A DNA stretch of 42,435 bases from Candidatus Onthousia faecigallinarum (GTDB lineage Bacteria; Bacillota_I; Bacilli_A; RF39; UBA660), in assembly GCA_018716225.1 (NCBI GenBank), contig DVKE01000064.1:1-42435 (forward strand), given 5' to 3'. The notes beneath the pieces are model-generated. The model saw only the letters and a program-made list of their open reading frames with translations, was not told where the DNA came from and ran no database searches. Positions 31,281 to 40,460 of the stretch are shown one piece after another. How positions within the stretch are numbered: the first letter of the stretch is position 1; each line of letters opens with the position of its first letter. The translations under genes were made by a program, and so were the position numbers.

Positions 31281-32078
31281 TTATTCATACAAACTATTCG
31301 CTAAATCAACAAAAACGTTATATTCTATATTTTCTGCTCTTGTGGATAAGTCATAATGATATTTTTTTAATACGGATTCTACTTTTTCTAAATTATAATT
31401 TTTTAAATTATTGCGAATTGTTTTTCTTTTAAATTGAAAACTATCATGAACAAGTTTTATAAAAAAAGCTTCATTTTTTAGGTTTTCACGATTTTCTTTT
31501 GGGGTAAAAGATACTACAACACTATCTACTTTTGGTATAGGATAAAATTGATTTCTAGAAACAAAAAACTCTTTTTTCGTATCAAAGTAGTAATTTAATA
31601 GTACGGTTAAGGCTCCATATTCTTTTTTTCCTTTCGAAGCACAGAAACGATCTCCTACCTCTTTTTGTACCATCATAACAATTTTCTGAAAATAAAGAGA
31701 AGAAGAGATTAATTTAAAAAGAATAGGAGTTGTAATATAGTAAGGAACATTGCTTACAAAATATAAATTTTTATAATGGTAGTTCTTTGAATCTGCTTTT
31801 AAATCTGCTTTTAAAAAGTCTTGATATAAAATACTTATATTGTTATAAGATTTCAAATTTTCTGTTAAGATCTTTTCTAAAGTTTTATCAATCTCATAGC
31901 ACAACACATTTTTTGCTCTCACGGCAAGATCTTTCGTAAGCGAACCTGCTCCAGGACCTACTTCTATAACAAAATCTTCTTTCGTTAAGCCTACAATATT
32001 AGCAATGCGAGCGATCGTATTTTGATCTTTTAAAAAATTTTGACCATATTTTTTCTTGAATACAAATTTATCTTCCAA
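31281..32078 (-). CDS. rsmA: 16S rRNA (adenine1518/1519-N6)-dimethyltransferase
   Basis: KKYGQNFLKDQNTIARI, EVGPGAGSLT, NVPYYITTPILFKL. Confidence 0.97.
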   Translation of the reverse strand: MEDKFVFKKKYGQNFLKDQNTIARIANIVGLTKEDFVIEVGPGAGSLTKDLAVRAKNVLCYEIDKTLEKILTENLKSYNNISILYQDFLKADLKADSKNYHYKNLYFVSNVPYYITTPILFKLISSSLYFQKIVMMVQKEVGDRFCASKGKKEYGALTVLLNYYFDTKKEFFVSRNQFYPIPKVDSVVVSFTPKENRENLKNEAFFIKLVHDSFQFKRKTIRNNLKNYNLEKVESVLKKYHYDLSTRAENIEYNVFVDLANSLYE

Positions 32079-32160: not shown

Positions 32161-32607
32161 CTAATTCTTTTTTCTAGAATCATCTTTTTCTTTATCTTGA
32201 AACATAAAGAAGAAATTTCCAATGCATAATCCATATAGTAAAACATTACAATAAGCTAAAAAAGTATTAAAATAATTAAAATCGATACCATAGCCATAAA
32301 CTTGATTTAGTACCATGTTTTTATCAGTAAAGGCCCGATATCCTGCATATAAAATGACTAAGAAGACTAAATTACAAGTAATGTTATAAAACAGATTGTT
32401 GGTTACTCCTTTTTGATGAAGAACAAGATTTAATACAAAAAAGAGTAAAAGAACAAAAAAAGGAATAAATACACTAATCGATGTCATAAAACTTTTTTCT
32501 AATCTAGTATTTATTTGAATTACAATAAAAATAGTTATTCCAAAAGCCGCAATAAATAGTAAATACTTTGTTATACTAAACAATACATTAAATATTTTTC
32601 TCATCAT
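32161..32607 (-). CDS. Four-TM membrane protein of SipW/TasA-like island
   Basis: 148 aa, four hydrophobic segments; 8 bp downstream of preceding ORF. Confidence 0.6.
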   Translation of the reverse strand: MMRKIFNVLFSITKYLLFIAAFGITIFIVIQINTRLEKSFMTSISVFIPFFVLLLFFVLNLVLHQKGVTNNLFYNITCNLVFLVILYAGYRAFTDKNMVLNQVYGYGIDFNYFNTFLAYCNVLLYGLCIGNFFFMFQDKEKDDSRKKN

Positions 32608-32614
32608 TTTGGCA

Positions 32615-33307
32615 TCAACCTCCTATTACGGTATTTTTATACCATTCTGAGACTTCTACTACTAAATCAAGGGAAGTATTATAATTTTCTAATATTGCAT
32701 AATAGCTATCTCTGGTTAAGCTAAAGATCGTGTTTTTATTATCATTATTGCTAAATTGATAATTGTCTGCATTTTCTATATTACTCATAATATAAGAAGG
32801 AGAATTCATCAATTTTTTGATATTTAAATTAATAAAAGGTCTGATATAACTAAGAGATGGAATATTCATTGATTGACTATCGCTACTACCTAATGCATTC
32901 ATCTGCATGATAACACAGTCATTTAAAATATTATTTTGATAAAATTCACCAAAGTCATAAACATCTTTTAAGGAATACTCTGTCTTATTTAAGTAATTTT
33001 GTGATTCTTCGGATTCAAAGCTTGCTACACAAGAATTTAATCTTAATTGAATATTATTCAAATCATAACTAATATAGTTTCCTTGGTAAGTGCTAGCATC
33101 ATAACTAGCAGCATTGGCTTTAATGGTATCAATTTTTGCTTGAACTTGTTCTCTTGTAGCTGTTAGATTGTCACTAACATCGATTATTTCGTCAATGTCT
33201 CTTGCATGATTATAGTTAATGAACAAAAGAGCAAAAGCTAAACCAAAGATTAAACCTGTAAAAGTATATCCTATTAAATTAGCATATTCTAATAATAATT
33301 TTTTCAT
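32615..33307 (-). CDS. Membrane protein with large extracytoplasmic domain, SipW/TasA-like island
   Basis: 230 aa, N-terminal TM (YTFTGLIFGLAFALLFINY), soluble remainder; 4-bp overlap with upstream gene. Confidence 0.6.
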   Translation of the reverse strand: MKKLLLEYANLIGYTFTGLIFGLAFALLFINYNHARDIDEIIDVSDNLTATREQVQAKIDTIKANAASYDASTYQGNYISYDLNNIQLRLNSCVASFESEESQNYLNKTEYSLKDVYDFGEFYQNNILNDCVIMQMNALGSSDSQSMNIPSLSYIRPFINLNIKKLMNSPSYIMSNIENADNYQFSNNDNKNTIFSLTRDSYYAILENYNTSLDLVVEVSEWYKNTVIGG

Positions 33308-33831
33308 TTTGATCCCTCCGTTTGGATTGTAATTTGATAGCTATAAGATTTATTGATCCAATCTGTATCCATAGTATCCTCATTTAACCATATTTTTAAG
33401 CTATATTTATTTTCTTTCTCGCCCTCAATACTTCTTTCATCTAAAACATTGTTCTTGATCTCATCTAAGGTTCCTTTTTTTATAACTTTTCCATTTAAAG
33501 ATAGTTCATAAGATAGTTGACTCCGTGATAAAGATTTATCTATGTTGGTCGTTACAGAATCCTCTAACAATACTTTATAAATAGTAGGATCTTTTGTTTG
33601 ATTATAGACAGTAAATTGATAAGGATCTACGGCATCTGTATTTTCTGTTGGTACCGCATCTTTCTCATGAATTGTTTTTTCATTATCTTCTAATTTTACC
33701 ATAAGATTCGATATTTTGGTGTTTTCCGTTCCTTTTTTTGTATAAAATATCTGATACCATCCAAAAGCGCTTAATACTATGAAAAGGAATAGGGTGATTC
33801 CTCCTAGAATGTAAAGTAGTTTTCTTTTCAT
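33304..33831 (-). CDS. Membrane-anchored TasA/camelysin-like protein (degenerate signal)
   Basis: 175 aa; TM followed by FYTKKGTENTKISNLMVKLED, alignable by eye to FSYSKTGEKVNTITTGSIVMSYNE of paralogues; C-term ..YSLKIWLNED...YSYQITIQ parallels YRLRMWIDQ..YKLRVNVYG. Confidence 0.55.
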   Translation of the reverse strand: MKRKLLYILGGITLFLFIVLSAFGWYQIFYTKKGTENTKISNLMVKLEDNEKTIHEKDAVPTENTDAVDPYQFTVYNQTKDPTIYKVLLEDSVTTNIDKSLSRSQLSYELSLNGKVIKKGTLDEIKNNVLDERSIEGEKENKYSLKIWLNEDTMDTDWINKSYSYQITIQTEGSK

Positions 33832-34517
33832 TTCTTATACCTCCTTTCGGATCCTTTTTTTGTTTCTATTTCTTTCAACTTTTTATTTTCTTTCTTTTCT
33901 TTCTTGGAAGATACTTTTCCTATTGTTTTAATAAGTTTTACAATATCATATGAAATAATAGCTAACGCGGGGATTACAATAATAAAAATCCAACCAGCTA
34001 AACTGCTTAAATAATATTGAATATATCCTACTTTTGGAATTCTTAATATGACTTTCCCATAAATATTATCGAACTTAATTCTAGTAGCATCCGTTGTATT
34101 GTTCGCATCTCCTTTTGTAGTAAACAAATACTGACCATCGGTTGTCTGTTCTATTTTATTAATACGGTGGGTTACTGTTACTCCTGAATAACGATAATCT
34201 GTGGAAGTGAAAGTAATAACATCTCCAACTTTTAAGTCTTCTGGTTTATTTACTCGAATGGTTACAACCATATCTAATACATTAATGGCAGGTACCATAC
34301 TAGGGCTAACAATAGTATAAGCAGAAAAAATCGGAGGTTTTGTTACGCCTTTTTTTATGTTTCTGTTTTGATCAAAAAAGTTGATCACAAAACAGATGAA
34401 AACGATCACCATAATAAAACACAAAGAATACATTATAACCGTAGAGATATAATGCAATATTTTTTTTATCGTGGTGCTTTTTTTATTCTTTTGTTCCATT
34501 TTCAAGTTCTCACCCAC
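33828..34517 (-). CDS. sipW: Signal peptidase I, ER-type (SipW-like)
   Basis: SPSMVPAINVLDMVV (Ser), VTVTHRI (His in place of the bacterial Lys), TKGDANNTTD; N- and C-terminal TMs. Probable start MEQKNKK at 34499. Confidence 0.9.
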   Translation of the reverse strand: MGENLKMEQKNKKSTTIKKILHYISTVIMYSLCFIMVIVFICFVINFFDQNRNIKKGVTKPPIFSAYTIVSPSMVPAINVLDMVVTIRVNKPEDLKVGDVITFTSTDYRYSGVTVTHRINKIEQTTDGQYLFTTKGDANNTTDATRIKFDNIYGKVILRIPKVGYIQYYLSSLAGWIFIIVIPALAIISYDIVKLIKTIGKVSSKKEKKENKKLKEIETKKGSERRYKK

Positions 34518-34571
34518 CCTATTATTCTTTTATATTTACTATATCATATTTTAAAATGTAAAAAAAGAATT

Positions 34572-35210
34572 CTATGTATCAATTTTTGCATTTACAGCCA
34601 CTTGTACGGAAAAGGTTCTAGAAGTCCCTGTAATTTCAGCATCATCGGCCATCCACATTCTAAGCCGATATTTAACAGAAGTTGTTTCATCCACAGAATT
34701 TTTAGTTAGAAGCATACTTCCTACGGAACTTCCAATTTCTGTTTGTTCAGTTAAGGGGGTAAAAACAGTAGGTTCCATCACTTCTTCGTAAATACCATTT
34801 TTTTGTTGTTCAAGATAAAGCTTTACCTCATTATTCTCTAAGGTTGAGTTTGTGGTCTTTTCAGCTGATATTTCATAGGTTGTAGTGGCTTTTCCTTTTA
34901 TCGTTGCTTGAATTGTAAAATCAAAATATTCTCCAGACCCATTTAATACTTTGCCCATCTCATCACTTAATGGCTTGGCATCAGTAATGGTAATACCATT
35001 GGTATCCTCTGTAAACATTAAGGATATATTTCCAGTATCTATCGTGTTAATATTATTTTCTTCATTTGTGAAGCTGTAGATTGCTGTAGAAAATCCCACA
35101 ATCATTAACAGAACAATTAATAAGCAAATAATACTAAAGAAAAAAGATTTATTTGATTGCCTTTTAATTTGTACTGCTTCCTCTTTTTTTTCTTCTTGTT
35201 CCATGTTCAC
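34572..35210 (-). CDS. TasA/camelysin-like secreted protein with SipW-type signal sequence (paralogue D)
   Basis: TM then STAIYSFTNEENNINTIDTGNISLMFTEDTNGITITDAKPLSDEMGKVL...YFDFTIQATIKGKATTTYEIS...YRLRMWMADDAE...FSVQVAVNAK. Confidence 0.8.
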   Translation of the reverse strand: MNMEQEEKKEEAVQIKRQSNKSFFFSIICLLIVLLMIVGFSTAIYSFTNEENNINTIDTGNISLMFTEDTNGITITDAKPLSDEMGKVLNGSGEYFDFTIQATIKGKATTTYEISAEKTTNSTLENNEVKLYLEQQKNGIYEEVMEPTVFTPLTEQTEIGSSVGSMLLTKNSVDETTSVKYRLRMWMADDAEITGTSRTFSVQVAVNAKIDT

Positions 35211-35287
35211 ACCCTCTTATTATGTGTTAATTGTATCATATATTTTTTTTAAGGTAAAGAGAGCTTTTCAAGAAAATAAATTTTGGC

Positions 35288-35330
35288 AGAAAAAAAGCCA
35301 TTAAATTTATTTTAAAATTTAATAGCTTTT
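35288..35330 (-). terminator. Strong intrinsic terminator of paralogue C
   Basis: Minus AAAAGCTATTAAATTT...AAATTTAATGGCTTTTTTT; ~16-bp stem (one wobble). Confidence 0.8.
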
Positions 35331-35332
35331 AA

Positions 35333-35959
35333 CTAAGCTGCGGCTGCACCATATACGTTAACTCTCAACTTATAAGTGCCTGAAGTTCCAAGACTACTGT
35401 AGTTTTGATCAATCCACATTCTTAAACGATATGCTCTTGTATTACTTGCTGCAAATGTATCTTCATATAGCTTGTATTGATCGGCAGGAGCTCCAGTTTT
35501 AGTAGTATCTGTGCCATCCGTTTGTTCCAAATCAGAAACTAGAGTTGGTGCTAAGATTTGGCTATCAGCCTCTGCATCCATGCTTGTTAGATATACTTTA
35601 ACTCCAGTATCAGGAATATCACTGTCTGCTTCTTTTGTAGCTGTGATTACATAATTAATTGTAGTTGAACCAGTAATCGTTGCACTTACATTGAAATCAA
35701 AGTATTCTTCGTGACCAGCAGTATTTCCTGATAAAGCCATGCCTTGAGCATCAGATATTGGTAAAGCATCTACCAAATTAATTCCATTGGTCGTTTCATT
35801 ATAACTCATAACGATACTACCTGTGGTAATGGTATTTACTTTCTCTCCAGTTTTACTATAGCTAAAAGCTGCGAATGATACTCCTACAACGGCTACCACT
35901 AAGATTGCTACTCCTAAGACCGATAATAGGATCTGTTTAGAATTGTTGTTTTCTTTCAC
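35333..35959 (-). CDS. TasA/camelysin-like secreted protein with SipW-type signal sequence (paralogue C)
   Basis: 208 aa; VVGVSFAAFSYSKTGEKVNTITTGSIVMSYNETTNGINLVDALPISDAQG...YRLRMWIDQNYSSLGTSGTYKLRVNVYGAAAA. Confidence 0.85.
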   Translation of the reverse strand: MKENNNSKQILLSVLGVAILVVAVVGVSFAAFSYSKTGEKVNTITTGSIVMSYNETTNGINLVDALPISDAQGMALSGNTAGHEEYFDFNVSATITGSTTINYVITATKEADSDIPDTGVKVYLTSMDAEADSQILAPTLVSDLEQTDGTDTTKTGAPADQYKLYEDTFAASNTRAYRLRMWIDQNYSSLGTSGTYKLRVNVYGAAAA

Positions 35960-36046
35960 GTCAGCTAACCTCCTTTACAATAATAAATATATCAAGTTTT
36001 TTTCTTTTCCGCAATAAATTGTTTCTTCGTTGTGTCAAATAATATT

Positions 36047-36673
36047 CTAAGCAGCTGCTGCGGCACCATATACATTAACTCTTAATTTGTATGTATAGGC
36101 TGTGTCAACACCAGTATAATCATCTGCTACCCACATTCTCAATCGATAATTTCTTGAATTTGTACTAGTAAATGTGTTTTCATGCAATTTGTATTGAGCT
36201 GCTGGTGCTCCAGTATTTTGAGTGTCTGTTGCATTTGTTTGTGGAAGCGCCGAAACTTTTGTTGGAGCTAACAACTGACTATCTGATGAATCCATATCAG
36301 TTAAATACACTTTTACTGCCGTGTCAGGTAAAGTACTCTCGGATTCTTTTGTTGCAGTAATTACATAATTAATTGTAGTAGTACCTGTTATGTTTGCTGA
36401 AACAGTAAAGTCAAAGTATTCTTCTTGACCATCAGTATTTCCTGATAGGGCTTTTCCTTGTTCATCACTCATAGGAAGTGCATTTGTTAAATTAATTCCA
36501 TTTGTAGTTTCCGCATAGTTCATAGTAATTGAACCAGTTGTAATCGTATTTACTTTCTCTCCAGTTTTACTATAGCTGAAAGCCGCAAATGATACTCCTA
36601 CGACTGCCACCACTAGAATCGCTACTCCTAATACTGAGAGTAAAACTTGCTTTGATGAATTTTTCTCTTTCAT
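36047..36673 (-). CDS. TasA/camelysin-like secreted protein with SipW-type signal sequence (paralogue B)
   Basis: 208 aa; near-identical N-terminus to paralogue C, C-term YRLRMWVADDYTGVDTAYTYKLRVNVYGAAAAA. Confidence 0.85.
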   Translation of the reverse strand: MKEKNSSKQVLLSVLGVAILVVAVVGVSFAAFSYSKTGEKVNTITTGSITMNYAETTNGINLTNALPMSDEQGKALSGNTDGQEEYFDFTVSANITGTTTINYVITATKESESTLPDTAVKVYLTDMDSSDSQLLAPTKVSALPQTNATDTQNTGAPAAQYKLHENTFTSTNSRNYRLRMWVADDYTGVDTAYTYKLRVNVYGAAAAA

Positions 36674-36749
36674 TTTCTATCCTCCTTGTATACTAATATA
36701 GCAACTTTTTCGGATTTTGAAAAGAGACTTTGCGATTTTTTTTGAAATG

Positions 36750-36798
36750 ACAAAAAAATAGAGTCAATTGACTCTATTACTTGACTCTATTACTTATT
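36750..36798 (-). terminator. Intrinsic terminator of paralogue A containing a perfect 22-bp palindrome and a tandem partial copy
   Basis: 36757-36778 AATAGAGTCAATTGACTCTATT is its own reverse complement; T7 follows on the minus strand; TGACTCTATTACT repeated directly. Confidence 0.8.
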
Positions 36799-36808
36799 TC
36801 CTTTACAC

Positions 36809-37429
36809 TTATTTTGCTTTTCCGTATACATTTACTCTTATTTTATAAATTTCACTAGGAGCTGTTCCTACATAATTTTGATCAATCCACATTCTAAGCC
36901 GATAAGAGCGATTGCCTGTTTTTTGAAAAGAATCCGTTTTTAAAAGATATTGATTTGGAGGAGTTCCCGTTTCTTCGGTATCTCTTGCATCGGTTTTCTT
37001 CAAAGAAGAAACAAGAGTTGGACTTAATACTTGATTTTCCATATTTCCTTCTAAGGAAGTTAAATAGACTTTAATTCCAGAATCTGGTATAGTACTTCCC
37101 ATTTCTTTTGTTGCTGTTATTGTGTAATTTATTGTTAAATCTCCTGAAATACTAACACTGACATTAAAATCAAAATATTGTTCTTTGTTAGCTTCTGTCC
37201 CAGAAAGAGACATCCCTTTCGCATCACTCATAGGATAAGCATCCACTAGATTGATTCCATTCGTTATCTCATTATAACTCATAACAATCGTACTAGTTGT
37301 AATCGTATTAACTTTTTCTCCGGTTTTACTATACTGAAAAGCTGCATAACTGACTCCTACGACTGCTAATAACAAAATAATGATTCCAACAAAAGCTAAT
37401 ACTTTTTGATTTGATTCTTTTTTATTCAC
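36809..37429 (-). CDS. TasA/camelysin-like secreted protein with SipW-type signal sequence (paralogue A)
   Basis: 206 aa; VVGVSYAAFQYSKTGEKVNTITTSTIVMSYNEITNGINLVDAYPMSDAKG...YRLRMWIDQNYVGTAPSEIYKIRVNVYGKAK. Confidence 0.85.
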   Translation of the reverse strand: MNKKESNQKVLAFVGIIILLLAVVGVSYAAFQYSKTGEKVNTITTSTIVMSYNEITNGINLVDAYPMSDAKGMSLSGTEANKEQYFDFNVSVSISGDLTINYTITATKEMGSTIPDSGIKVYLTSLEGNMENQVLSPTLVSSLKKTDARDTEETGTPPNQYLLKTDSFQKTGNRSYRLRMWIDQNYVGTAPSEIYKIRVNVYGKAK

Positions 37430-37517: not shown

Positions 37518-38279
37518 TTACTCCTTTATTTTAAATATCTTTTTTGCATTTTTAGTAGTTTCTTCTTCCACTTTTTGTAAGGTTACACCTTTTATTTTAG
37601 CTATTTCTTCTGCAATAACGGGAATATTCTTCGATGAGTTTTTCTTTCCGCGATAAGGCTCTGGAGATAAATAAGGGCTATCTGTTTCTAAAACAATATT
37701 ATCAAAAGAAATCTGTTCTACCACTTTCTTTAAATTGCTATTTTTGAATGTTACAACACCACCAATTCCTAAATAATAACCTAGTTTTATATATTGTTTC
37801 GCTACTTCTAAACTTCCACTAAAGCAGTGGATGATCCCTTTTACTTTGCCTCTATATTTTTCTAATATCAAAAGAGTATCTTCTGTAGCATCTCTAGAGT
37901 GAATAACAACAGGAAGATGATTTTTTTCTGCTAGTTGCAATTGCTCTTCAAAAAGTGTAATCTGTTTGTCTTTTTGATCTTTACCATAATGATAATCAAG
38001 ACCAATTTCTCCTATTCCTACTACTTTGGATTCTTTTAATTGTTCTTCTAAAGAAAGAATATCTTCTTTTTTTATTTTTTCTGCTTCTTCCGGATGATAA
38101 CCTAAAGTAATATAAACTTCTTTGTATTTTGTACTTAACTCTTTTGCTTCCTTCATATTTTCTTTGTTGCAAAAAGAAACAATAATAGGAGATACCCCCG
38201 CTAAAACGCTTTCTTTTATTACTTGATCAATATCTGTATAATCACCTTTACTTAAGTGACAATGTGTATCTATATACAT
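37518..38279 (-). CDS. tatD: TatD family DNase
   Basis: YIDTHCHL, GEIGLDYHY, VIHSRDA, HCFSGS, LETDSPYLSPEPYRGKKN. Confidence 0.97.
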   Translation of the reverse strand: MYIDTHCHLSKGDYTDIDQVIKESVLAGVSPIIVSFCNKENMKEAKELSTKYKEVYITLGYHPEEAEKIKKEDILSLEEQLKESKVVGIGEIGLDYHYGKDQKDKQITLFEEQLQLAEKNHLPVVIHSRDATEDTLLILEKYRGKVKGIIHCFSGSLEVAKQYIKLGYYLGIGGVVTFKNSNLKKVVEQISFDNIVLETDSPYLSPEPYRGKKNSSKNIPVIAEEIAKIKGVTLQKVEEETTKNAKKIFKIKE

Positions 38280-40221: not shown

Positions 40222-40435
40222 AAAAATTATTGTTCAAAAGGACGAGTCTTCCCGCGGTACCACCTTTTTTCGCAATAATTTGCACTCTTATTTGGAACAT
40301 AACGCGTCCTTACGTTCATACCTACTTATCGATATGACAGTTCCAGAGCCATATCCAAATGACCTTATCGCTTCTTTTCCATCATCCGAAGTCTCTATTA
40401 CTAAAAGTCAAAAGGACTCTCTTTCATCACTTTTA
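40222..40435 (-). promoter_or_regulatory. T-box leader (tRNA-responsive riboswitch) upstream of metG
   Basis: Minus strand AAGGTGGTACCGCGGGAAGACTCGTCCTTTT (T-box/antiterminator) preceded by stem I elements (GATGAAAGAGAG, GGATGATGGAAA, GTAGGTATGAACG) and terminator AAATTATTG...CAATAATTTTTTT. Candidate AUG specifier at 40350-40352. Confidence 0.93.
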
Positions 40436-40460
40436 TAGGATTATTTTAACATATTATTTT

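Follow-up and report, generated by a model that had tools for sequence, protein, structure and literature searches.

Outside Bacillus, where TapA or CapP takes on the task, it is poorly understood how Gram-positive bacteria start TasA-type fibres and hold them at the membrane. A gene island in Candidatus Onthousia faecigallinarum, from an uncultured gut lineage of Bacilli, raises this question: does it encode a fibre system, and what would hold such fibres in place? The island occupies positions 32161-37429, minus strand, of a 42,435-nucleotide (nt) window (contig DVKE01000064.1 of assembly GCA_018716225.1, taken whole), part of a 1.15 Mb draft genome of 67 contigs that is 92% complete. It lies between tatD and ksgA and holds eight genes in the order T1-T2-T3-T4-sipW-T5-MPa-MPb. 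A first-pass annotation made from sequence alone had every open reading frame (ORF) and coordinate right, all on the minus strand; its count of seven genes was its only factual error, as its own list and our check of the ORFs both come to eight. We propose that the island is probably one unit that makes and anchors SipW-dependent surface fibres, with paralogous subunits and T5, MPa and MPb as the membrane base. Lengths below are in amino acids (aa).

36809..37429, minus strand: T1, TasA-like, 206 aa, with an N-terminal hydrophobic segment and the motif GVSYAAF; A7 profile match of 252 bits in its own genome
36047..36673, minus strand: T2, TasA-like, 208 aa, with the motif GVSFAAF; 76% identical to T3 in sequence
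35333..35959, minus strand: T3, TasA-like, 208 aa; AlphaFold2 model with a beta-sandwich after the signal helix, predicted local distance difference test (pLDDT) 87.7
34572..35210, minus strand: T4, TasA-like, 212 aa, adjoining sipW; member of a sipW-adjacent orthologue clade
33828..34517, minus strand: sipW, signal peptidase of endoplasmic reticulum (ER)/archaeal type, 229 aa; TIGR02228 and SEC11 profile matches
33304..33831, minus strand: T5, TasA-like, 175 aa, with one transmembrane segment and no SipW cleavage motif; aligned to T1-T4 with hhalign
32615..33307, minus strand: MPa, 230 aa, with one N-terminal transmembrane segment and an all-helical domain in its predicted model
32161..32607, minus strand: MPb, 148 aa, with four predicted transmembrane segments, adjoining MPa downstream

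SipW matches TIGR02228 at 93.1 bits (cutoff 51.85) and, by profile, the signal peptidase complex subunits SEC11A/C (E 4e-12). Residues S73, H117, D137 and D143 are invariant in an alignment of 16 homologues, so that the catalytic pair is Ser/His, not Ser/Lys, and the ER-type assignment made at first pass holds. Against NF046067, the equivalog model for Bacillus SipW, it scores 81.9 bits, below the cutoff of 190. The assembly, 92% complete, yielded no ordinary signal peptidase I (SPase I). Because 132 of 145 family genomes, the same genus included, encode one above cutoff, its absence here is probably an assembly gap; we therefore rejected SipW as the sole signal peptidase and read it as a second, specialised enzyme.

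The putative substrates T1-T4 resemble TasA in layout. Each has an N-terminal hydrophobic helix and a SipW-type signal followed by an NxxxxG strand motif, with ~160 residues after the motifs. T1-T3 share G-V-S-[FY]-A-A-F and then N-T-I-T-T, and T4 carries the variants G-F-S-T-A-I-Y and N-T-I-D-T-G. A strict cleavage motif is present in 114 of the 169 island T proteins. The T3 model has a lower-confidence segment right after the signal, and the donor strand of TasA is located just after its signal (PMC9674648, PMC10151520). Searched by fold, the confident beta-sandwich of T3 drew only weak matches from the PDB; a Pyrobaculum bundling pilus (7ueg), the highest-placed fibre that could be recognised, ranked third (prob 0.97, E 2.5e-3, TM-score about 0.3), and TasA itself fell outside the top 50. 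The beta-sandwich on which the first reading staked its TasA comparison is thus predicted for T3, with a TasA-like archaeal pilus among the top weak matches. By hhalign, the T proteins align to PF12389 members at E 2e-5 (prob 77%), mainly over the signal and first strands.

T4 represents an old orthologous lineage; its clade contains sipW-adjacent proteins only, at 25 of 25 loci (support 0.86). Among the other T proteins, the closest relative sits in the same locus for just 15 of 96, and most T paralogues are therefore older than the species.

Downstream of sipW lie the candidates for a membrane base. T5, which had been listed as a fifth related membrane protein, is homologous to T1-T4 (hhalign 99.1%, E 1.7e-18), with a full TasA-like extracellular domain behind its single transmembrane segment. 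Whereas most island T proteins keep the strict cleavage motif, only 7 of 56 T5 proteins have it and 49 lack it. Because this motif is lost, we infer that T5 stays in the membrane, and we propose it as a membrane-held fibre base. MPa is a new family: nothing scored above cutoff in Pfam, NCBIfam or a PDB sequence search, and its model (pLDDT 88.3) has no PDB fold match at E <= 0.001. Its residues C93 and C131 are invariant. MPb, with four transmembrane segments predicted in most members, is also a new family as far as sequence searches can tell; Pfam returned only DUF3397, below cutoff at E 0.59, and NCBIfam returned none. The two were thus rightly described from the start as unrecognised membrane proteins. 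The PDB sequence search with T, T5 and MPa gave only chance or transmembrane-driven matches.

These genes are tightly packed. In the window, sipW and T5 overlap by 4 nt, T5 and MPa overlap by 4 nt, and MPa and MPb are separated by 7 nt. Across 54-63 loci the median gaps are -4 nt (sipW-T5), 0 (T5-MPa) and +1 (MPa-MPb), bearing out the coupled operon that the overlaps had implied. T genes are more widely spaced, with 50-135 nt between them.

Gene order is also conserved. At the 52 named MPb loci of other genomes, MPa is always directly upstream of MPb (52/52), T5 precedes MPa in 45, and ksgA follows MPb directly in 42. sipW is in context at 50, the remaining two being cut by contig ends; the two membrane genes thus accompany sipW on every contig that extends far enough. 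The first-pass annotation had made its reading depend on this co-occurrence and had suggested a neighbourhood search in related genomes, which returned this conserved set. A second count, over the window and 40 sipW loci of family members, found MPa-MPb behind sipW and T5 in 11 genomes and a simpler tatD-T-sipW-ksgA arrangement in others; it is not independent of the first, since the 52 loci come partly from the same species. MPa was detected in 36 of the order's 288 genomes, all of one bacterial family, and outside that family the sole match across 392 genomes of the phylum was a 23-bit partial one. The order T-sipW-T5-MPa-MPb is kept across many genera, also at sites away from ksgA. A few loci (L145-L149) carry the same module away from tatD/ksgA, and the module therefore moves as a unit. 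The gene block is not a chance association.

Such conservation bears on two other accounts of the island. In one, T5, MPa and MPb would not be a fibre base but would assist SipW in secretion or quality control, as a receptor that presents the T proteins to it. Coupling is indeed tightest from sipW through MPb, with the T genes spaced apart; the module travels with sipW; and MPb, like SipW, is an integral membrane protein. Yet a full TasA-like extracellular domain such as that of T5 is unexpected in a peptidase co-factor, and MPa and MPb are missing from many sipW-T loci of the family, so that SipW does not need them. We consider this account quite improbable. The other, that the island is a decaying or neutral collection of surface proteins with no coherent function, could point to some frameshifted or truncated copies elsewhere in the genome. 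Many genera, however, conserve the order and spacing of the genes, the T4 lineage and the catalytic residues of SipW, which contradicts this account and leaves it barely credible.

Several observations weigh against fibres. T3 has only weak structural matches (E at least 1e-3, TM-score near 0.3), with unrelated beta proteins among them. PF12389, NF046066 and the other TasA/camelysin models of Pfam and NCBIfam match none of T1-T4, in the window or across their own genome, and among 104 homologues only six match NF046066, weakly (best E 0.0028). The strict cleavage motif is missing from about one in three island T proteins, and 7 of the 52 MPb loci have no recognisable T5, which is therefore not strictly needed. 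Of the four TasA/camelysin-like proteins first annotated, the TasA-like paralogues stand, but they lie outside the curated TasA and camelysin hidden Markov model (HMM) families.

A further account is a coat or matrix secreted by SipW without polymerisation, in which T1-T4 would be monomeric, secreted or wall-associated, and T5-MPa-MPb would regulate or sense the envelope. T1-T4 fail the TasA/camelysin HMMs, and domains like those of the T proteins also stand at the head of large lectin-like proteins, for which polymerisation is not required. This coat nevertheless seems rather unlikely to us: the flexible segment directly after the signal in the T3 model resembles that of donor-strand subunits, an archaeal TasA-like pilus is a top T3 match, and operons known to make fibres are laid out in this way, with several short paralogous subunits next to a SipW (PMC13082335, PMC7395162).

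The expanded or alternative fibre system suggested at first pass has survived every test we ran, and we can outline how it might work. T1-T4 would enter the membrane by their N-terminal hydrophobic signals and be cut by SipW, acting beside ordinary SPase I. The freed N-terminal segment of each subunit would complement the beta-sandwich of the next, yielding a fibre of paralogous subunits in which T4 may be a specialised, conserved member. T5, keeping its membrane helix, could be the subunit that begins or ends the fibre while held in the membrane, and with MPb and MPa (one transmembrane segment, a helical outer domain and two invariant cysteines) would form the base or assembly platform.

The same pathway may extend beyond the island. 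T- or T5-like domains occur at about 20 further places in the genome, several of them in dispersed proteins of 626-650 aa that join a T/T5-like N-terminal domain to C-terminal DUF6273 domains. Published models give DUF6273 a C-type-lectin fold (PMC10743442).

L047:5343-7244: large T/T5-headed protein with DUF6273 (domain matches)
L048:3253-5130: large T/T5-headed protein with DUF6273 (domain matches)
L051:4090-6030: large T/T5-headed protein with DUF6273 (domain matches)
L049:3806-5713: large T/T5-headed protein with an FGE-like C-terminal region (by eye, no Pfam match)

These lectin-headed proteins are probably co-substrates of SipW, and would act as adhesins, joined to the fibres, perhaps as tips, or placed on the surface. 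Some nine copies are about 90% identical in nucleotide sequence where their 5' parts overlap; since most end at contig breaks, the assembly understates the size of the adhesin family. Near-identical TasA-like copies at L041:6837-7109, L041:5173-6672 and L040:63-533 are frameshifted or truncated; they are possibly pseudogenes, phase variants or assembly hybrids. Genes for PD-(D/E)XK-type (Rpn-like) transposase-nucleases, identified by eye, adjoin two dispersed adhesin copies (L044:4366-5184, plus strand; L046:1842-2099, plus strand). The genome also encodes two reverse transcriptases (L096:2062-3369 and L097:4011-4847, both minus strand). We considered a diversity-generating retroelement for the lectin-like heads and rejected it, both enzymes being group II intron-like (QGG motifs).

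Six dispersed SipW-type adhesin genes share a leader of ~150 nt, in which a poly-G tract of 6-11 G precedes an intrinsic-terminator-like hairpin ahead of the start codon. No Rfam family was found in these leaders, whose sequence makes them a candidate phase-variation or attenuation switch.

L043:5340-5530, plus strand: poly-G leader, 11 G
L044:5310-5500, plus strand: poly-G leader, 10 G
L045:6470-6660, plus strand: poly-G leader, 8 G
L049:5714-5870, minus strand: poly-G leader, 7 G
L047:5240-5345, plus strand: poly-G leader, 6 G
L040:620-800, minus strand: poly-G leader, 10 G

In other genera, runs of 8-10 G occupy the spacer between -35- and -10-like boxes.

L066, 6887 and 7883, minus strand: G run in promoter-like spacer
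L077, 7854 and 19708, minus strand: G run in promoter-like spacer
L093, 10145, minus strand: G run in promoter-like spacer
L124:1699, plus strand: G run in promoter-like spacer
L171:1422, plus strand: G run in promoter-like spacer

These spacers mostly lie upstream of TasA-like genes, with boxes resembling TTGAC and TATAAT ahead of T genes in L066 (twice), L077, L093 and L124. Runs of at least 7 G fell upstream of T-like genes well above expectation, in 5 of 8 cases elsewhere (3.4% expected) and 4 of 5 in the genome itself (1.5% expected), given the share of sampled DNA that lies there; the probabilities are only indicative, because sampling of the own genome centred on these genes and the copies are related to one another. 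The T genes of the window itself carry no run of that length. Poly-G tracts in the promoters or leaders of many T-like genes, here and in relatives, suggest phase variation. A wider picture is possible, if tentative: T5-MPa-MPb may be an undescribed platform that starts and anchors TasA-like fibres, while the same SipW pathway displays lectin-headed subunits switched by promoter poly-G slippage, one operon thereby serving phase-variable, exchangeable-tip fibres in uncultured gut Bacilli.

Two housekeeping genes flank the island.

37518..38279, minus strand: tatD, upstream flank (TIGR00010, 284 bits)
31281..32078, minus strand: ksgA, downstream flank (PF00398, 204 bits)

Past ksgA come yabG (family match) and then veg and spoVG, assigned from translations alone; upstream of tatD are metS and a SpoVT-like gene, likewise identified by their translations. 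A T-box leader (Rfam RF00230) lies just upstream of metS at 40235-40436, minus strand, and a second is at L047:7332-7544, plus strand. A promoter scan of the island yielded nothing in excess of shuffled sequences. The island had been described as inserted between tatD and ksgA; it is located there, but this is the usual operon site in the lineage and not a unique insertion. rnmV is, as had been noted, not at its usual place: it was not found between tatD and ksgA, and no match in the genome passed the TIGR00334 cutoff. The island is no simple replacement for it, however, because in relatives a 3D-domain (YabE-type) gene separates tatD from the T genes. That 195-aa gene beside tatD was tried as RnmV and rejected on account of its 3D domain.

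Known systems show which parts are familiar. The tapA-sipW-tasA operon of B. subtilis likewise has a dedicated ER-type SipW beside SPase I, beta-sandwich substrates with N-terminal SipW-type signals and an accessory protein proposed at the fibre start (PMC9674648, PMC10151520). Unlike that operon, the loci here have as many as five T paralogues ahead of sipW, two extra membrane families, a different genomic site and T proteins that TasA HMMs do not recognise. In place of TapA stands T5, TasA-like and apparently membrane-held, a difference drawn from description: TapA is a secreted, SipW-cleaved accessory that donates its N-terminus, whereas T5 mostly lacks the cleavage motif. The sipW-tasA-capP-calY locus of B. 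cereus resembles the island in combining several TasA-like paralogues with a single SipW and an accessory protein for assembly (PMC13082335), with two camelysins plus CapP working with SipW (PMC13082335, PMC10151520). CapP, however, is secreted and wall-associated, and the literature consulted describes no membrane proteins of the MPa/MPb type there. C. perfringens sipW-bsaABCRSD is also a SipW operon for polymer-forming extracellular proteins and accessory secreted proteins (PMC7395162), but includes a two-component system, bsaRS, that the island lacks, and its described accessory genes encode secreted, not integral membrane, proteins. Outside Bacteria, the T3 model matches, weakly, the AbpA bundling pili of the archaeon Pyrobaculum, reported to be TasA-related and donor-strand-complemented (PMC9674648). 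The first-pass view that known fibres use one TasA, one TapA and one SipW was thus too narrow: multi-subunit TasA-like systems are already known in B. cereus, with a comparable sipW operon in C. perfringens, and the number of paralogues by itself is therefore no novelty. The novelty lies in the conserved membrane pair MPa/MPb, in a T5 that apparently stays uncleaved and in the putative control by poly-G tracts. This large group of uncultured gut bacteria has small genomes and a surface that has hardly been described. For it, the probable lectin-headed co-substrates, together with the poly-G promoters, suggest phase-variable contact with the host or community, and T5-MPa-MPb, conserved and translationally coupled to sipW, offers concrete candidates for an anchor or assembly platform.

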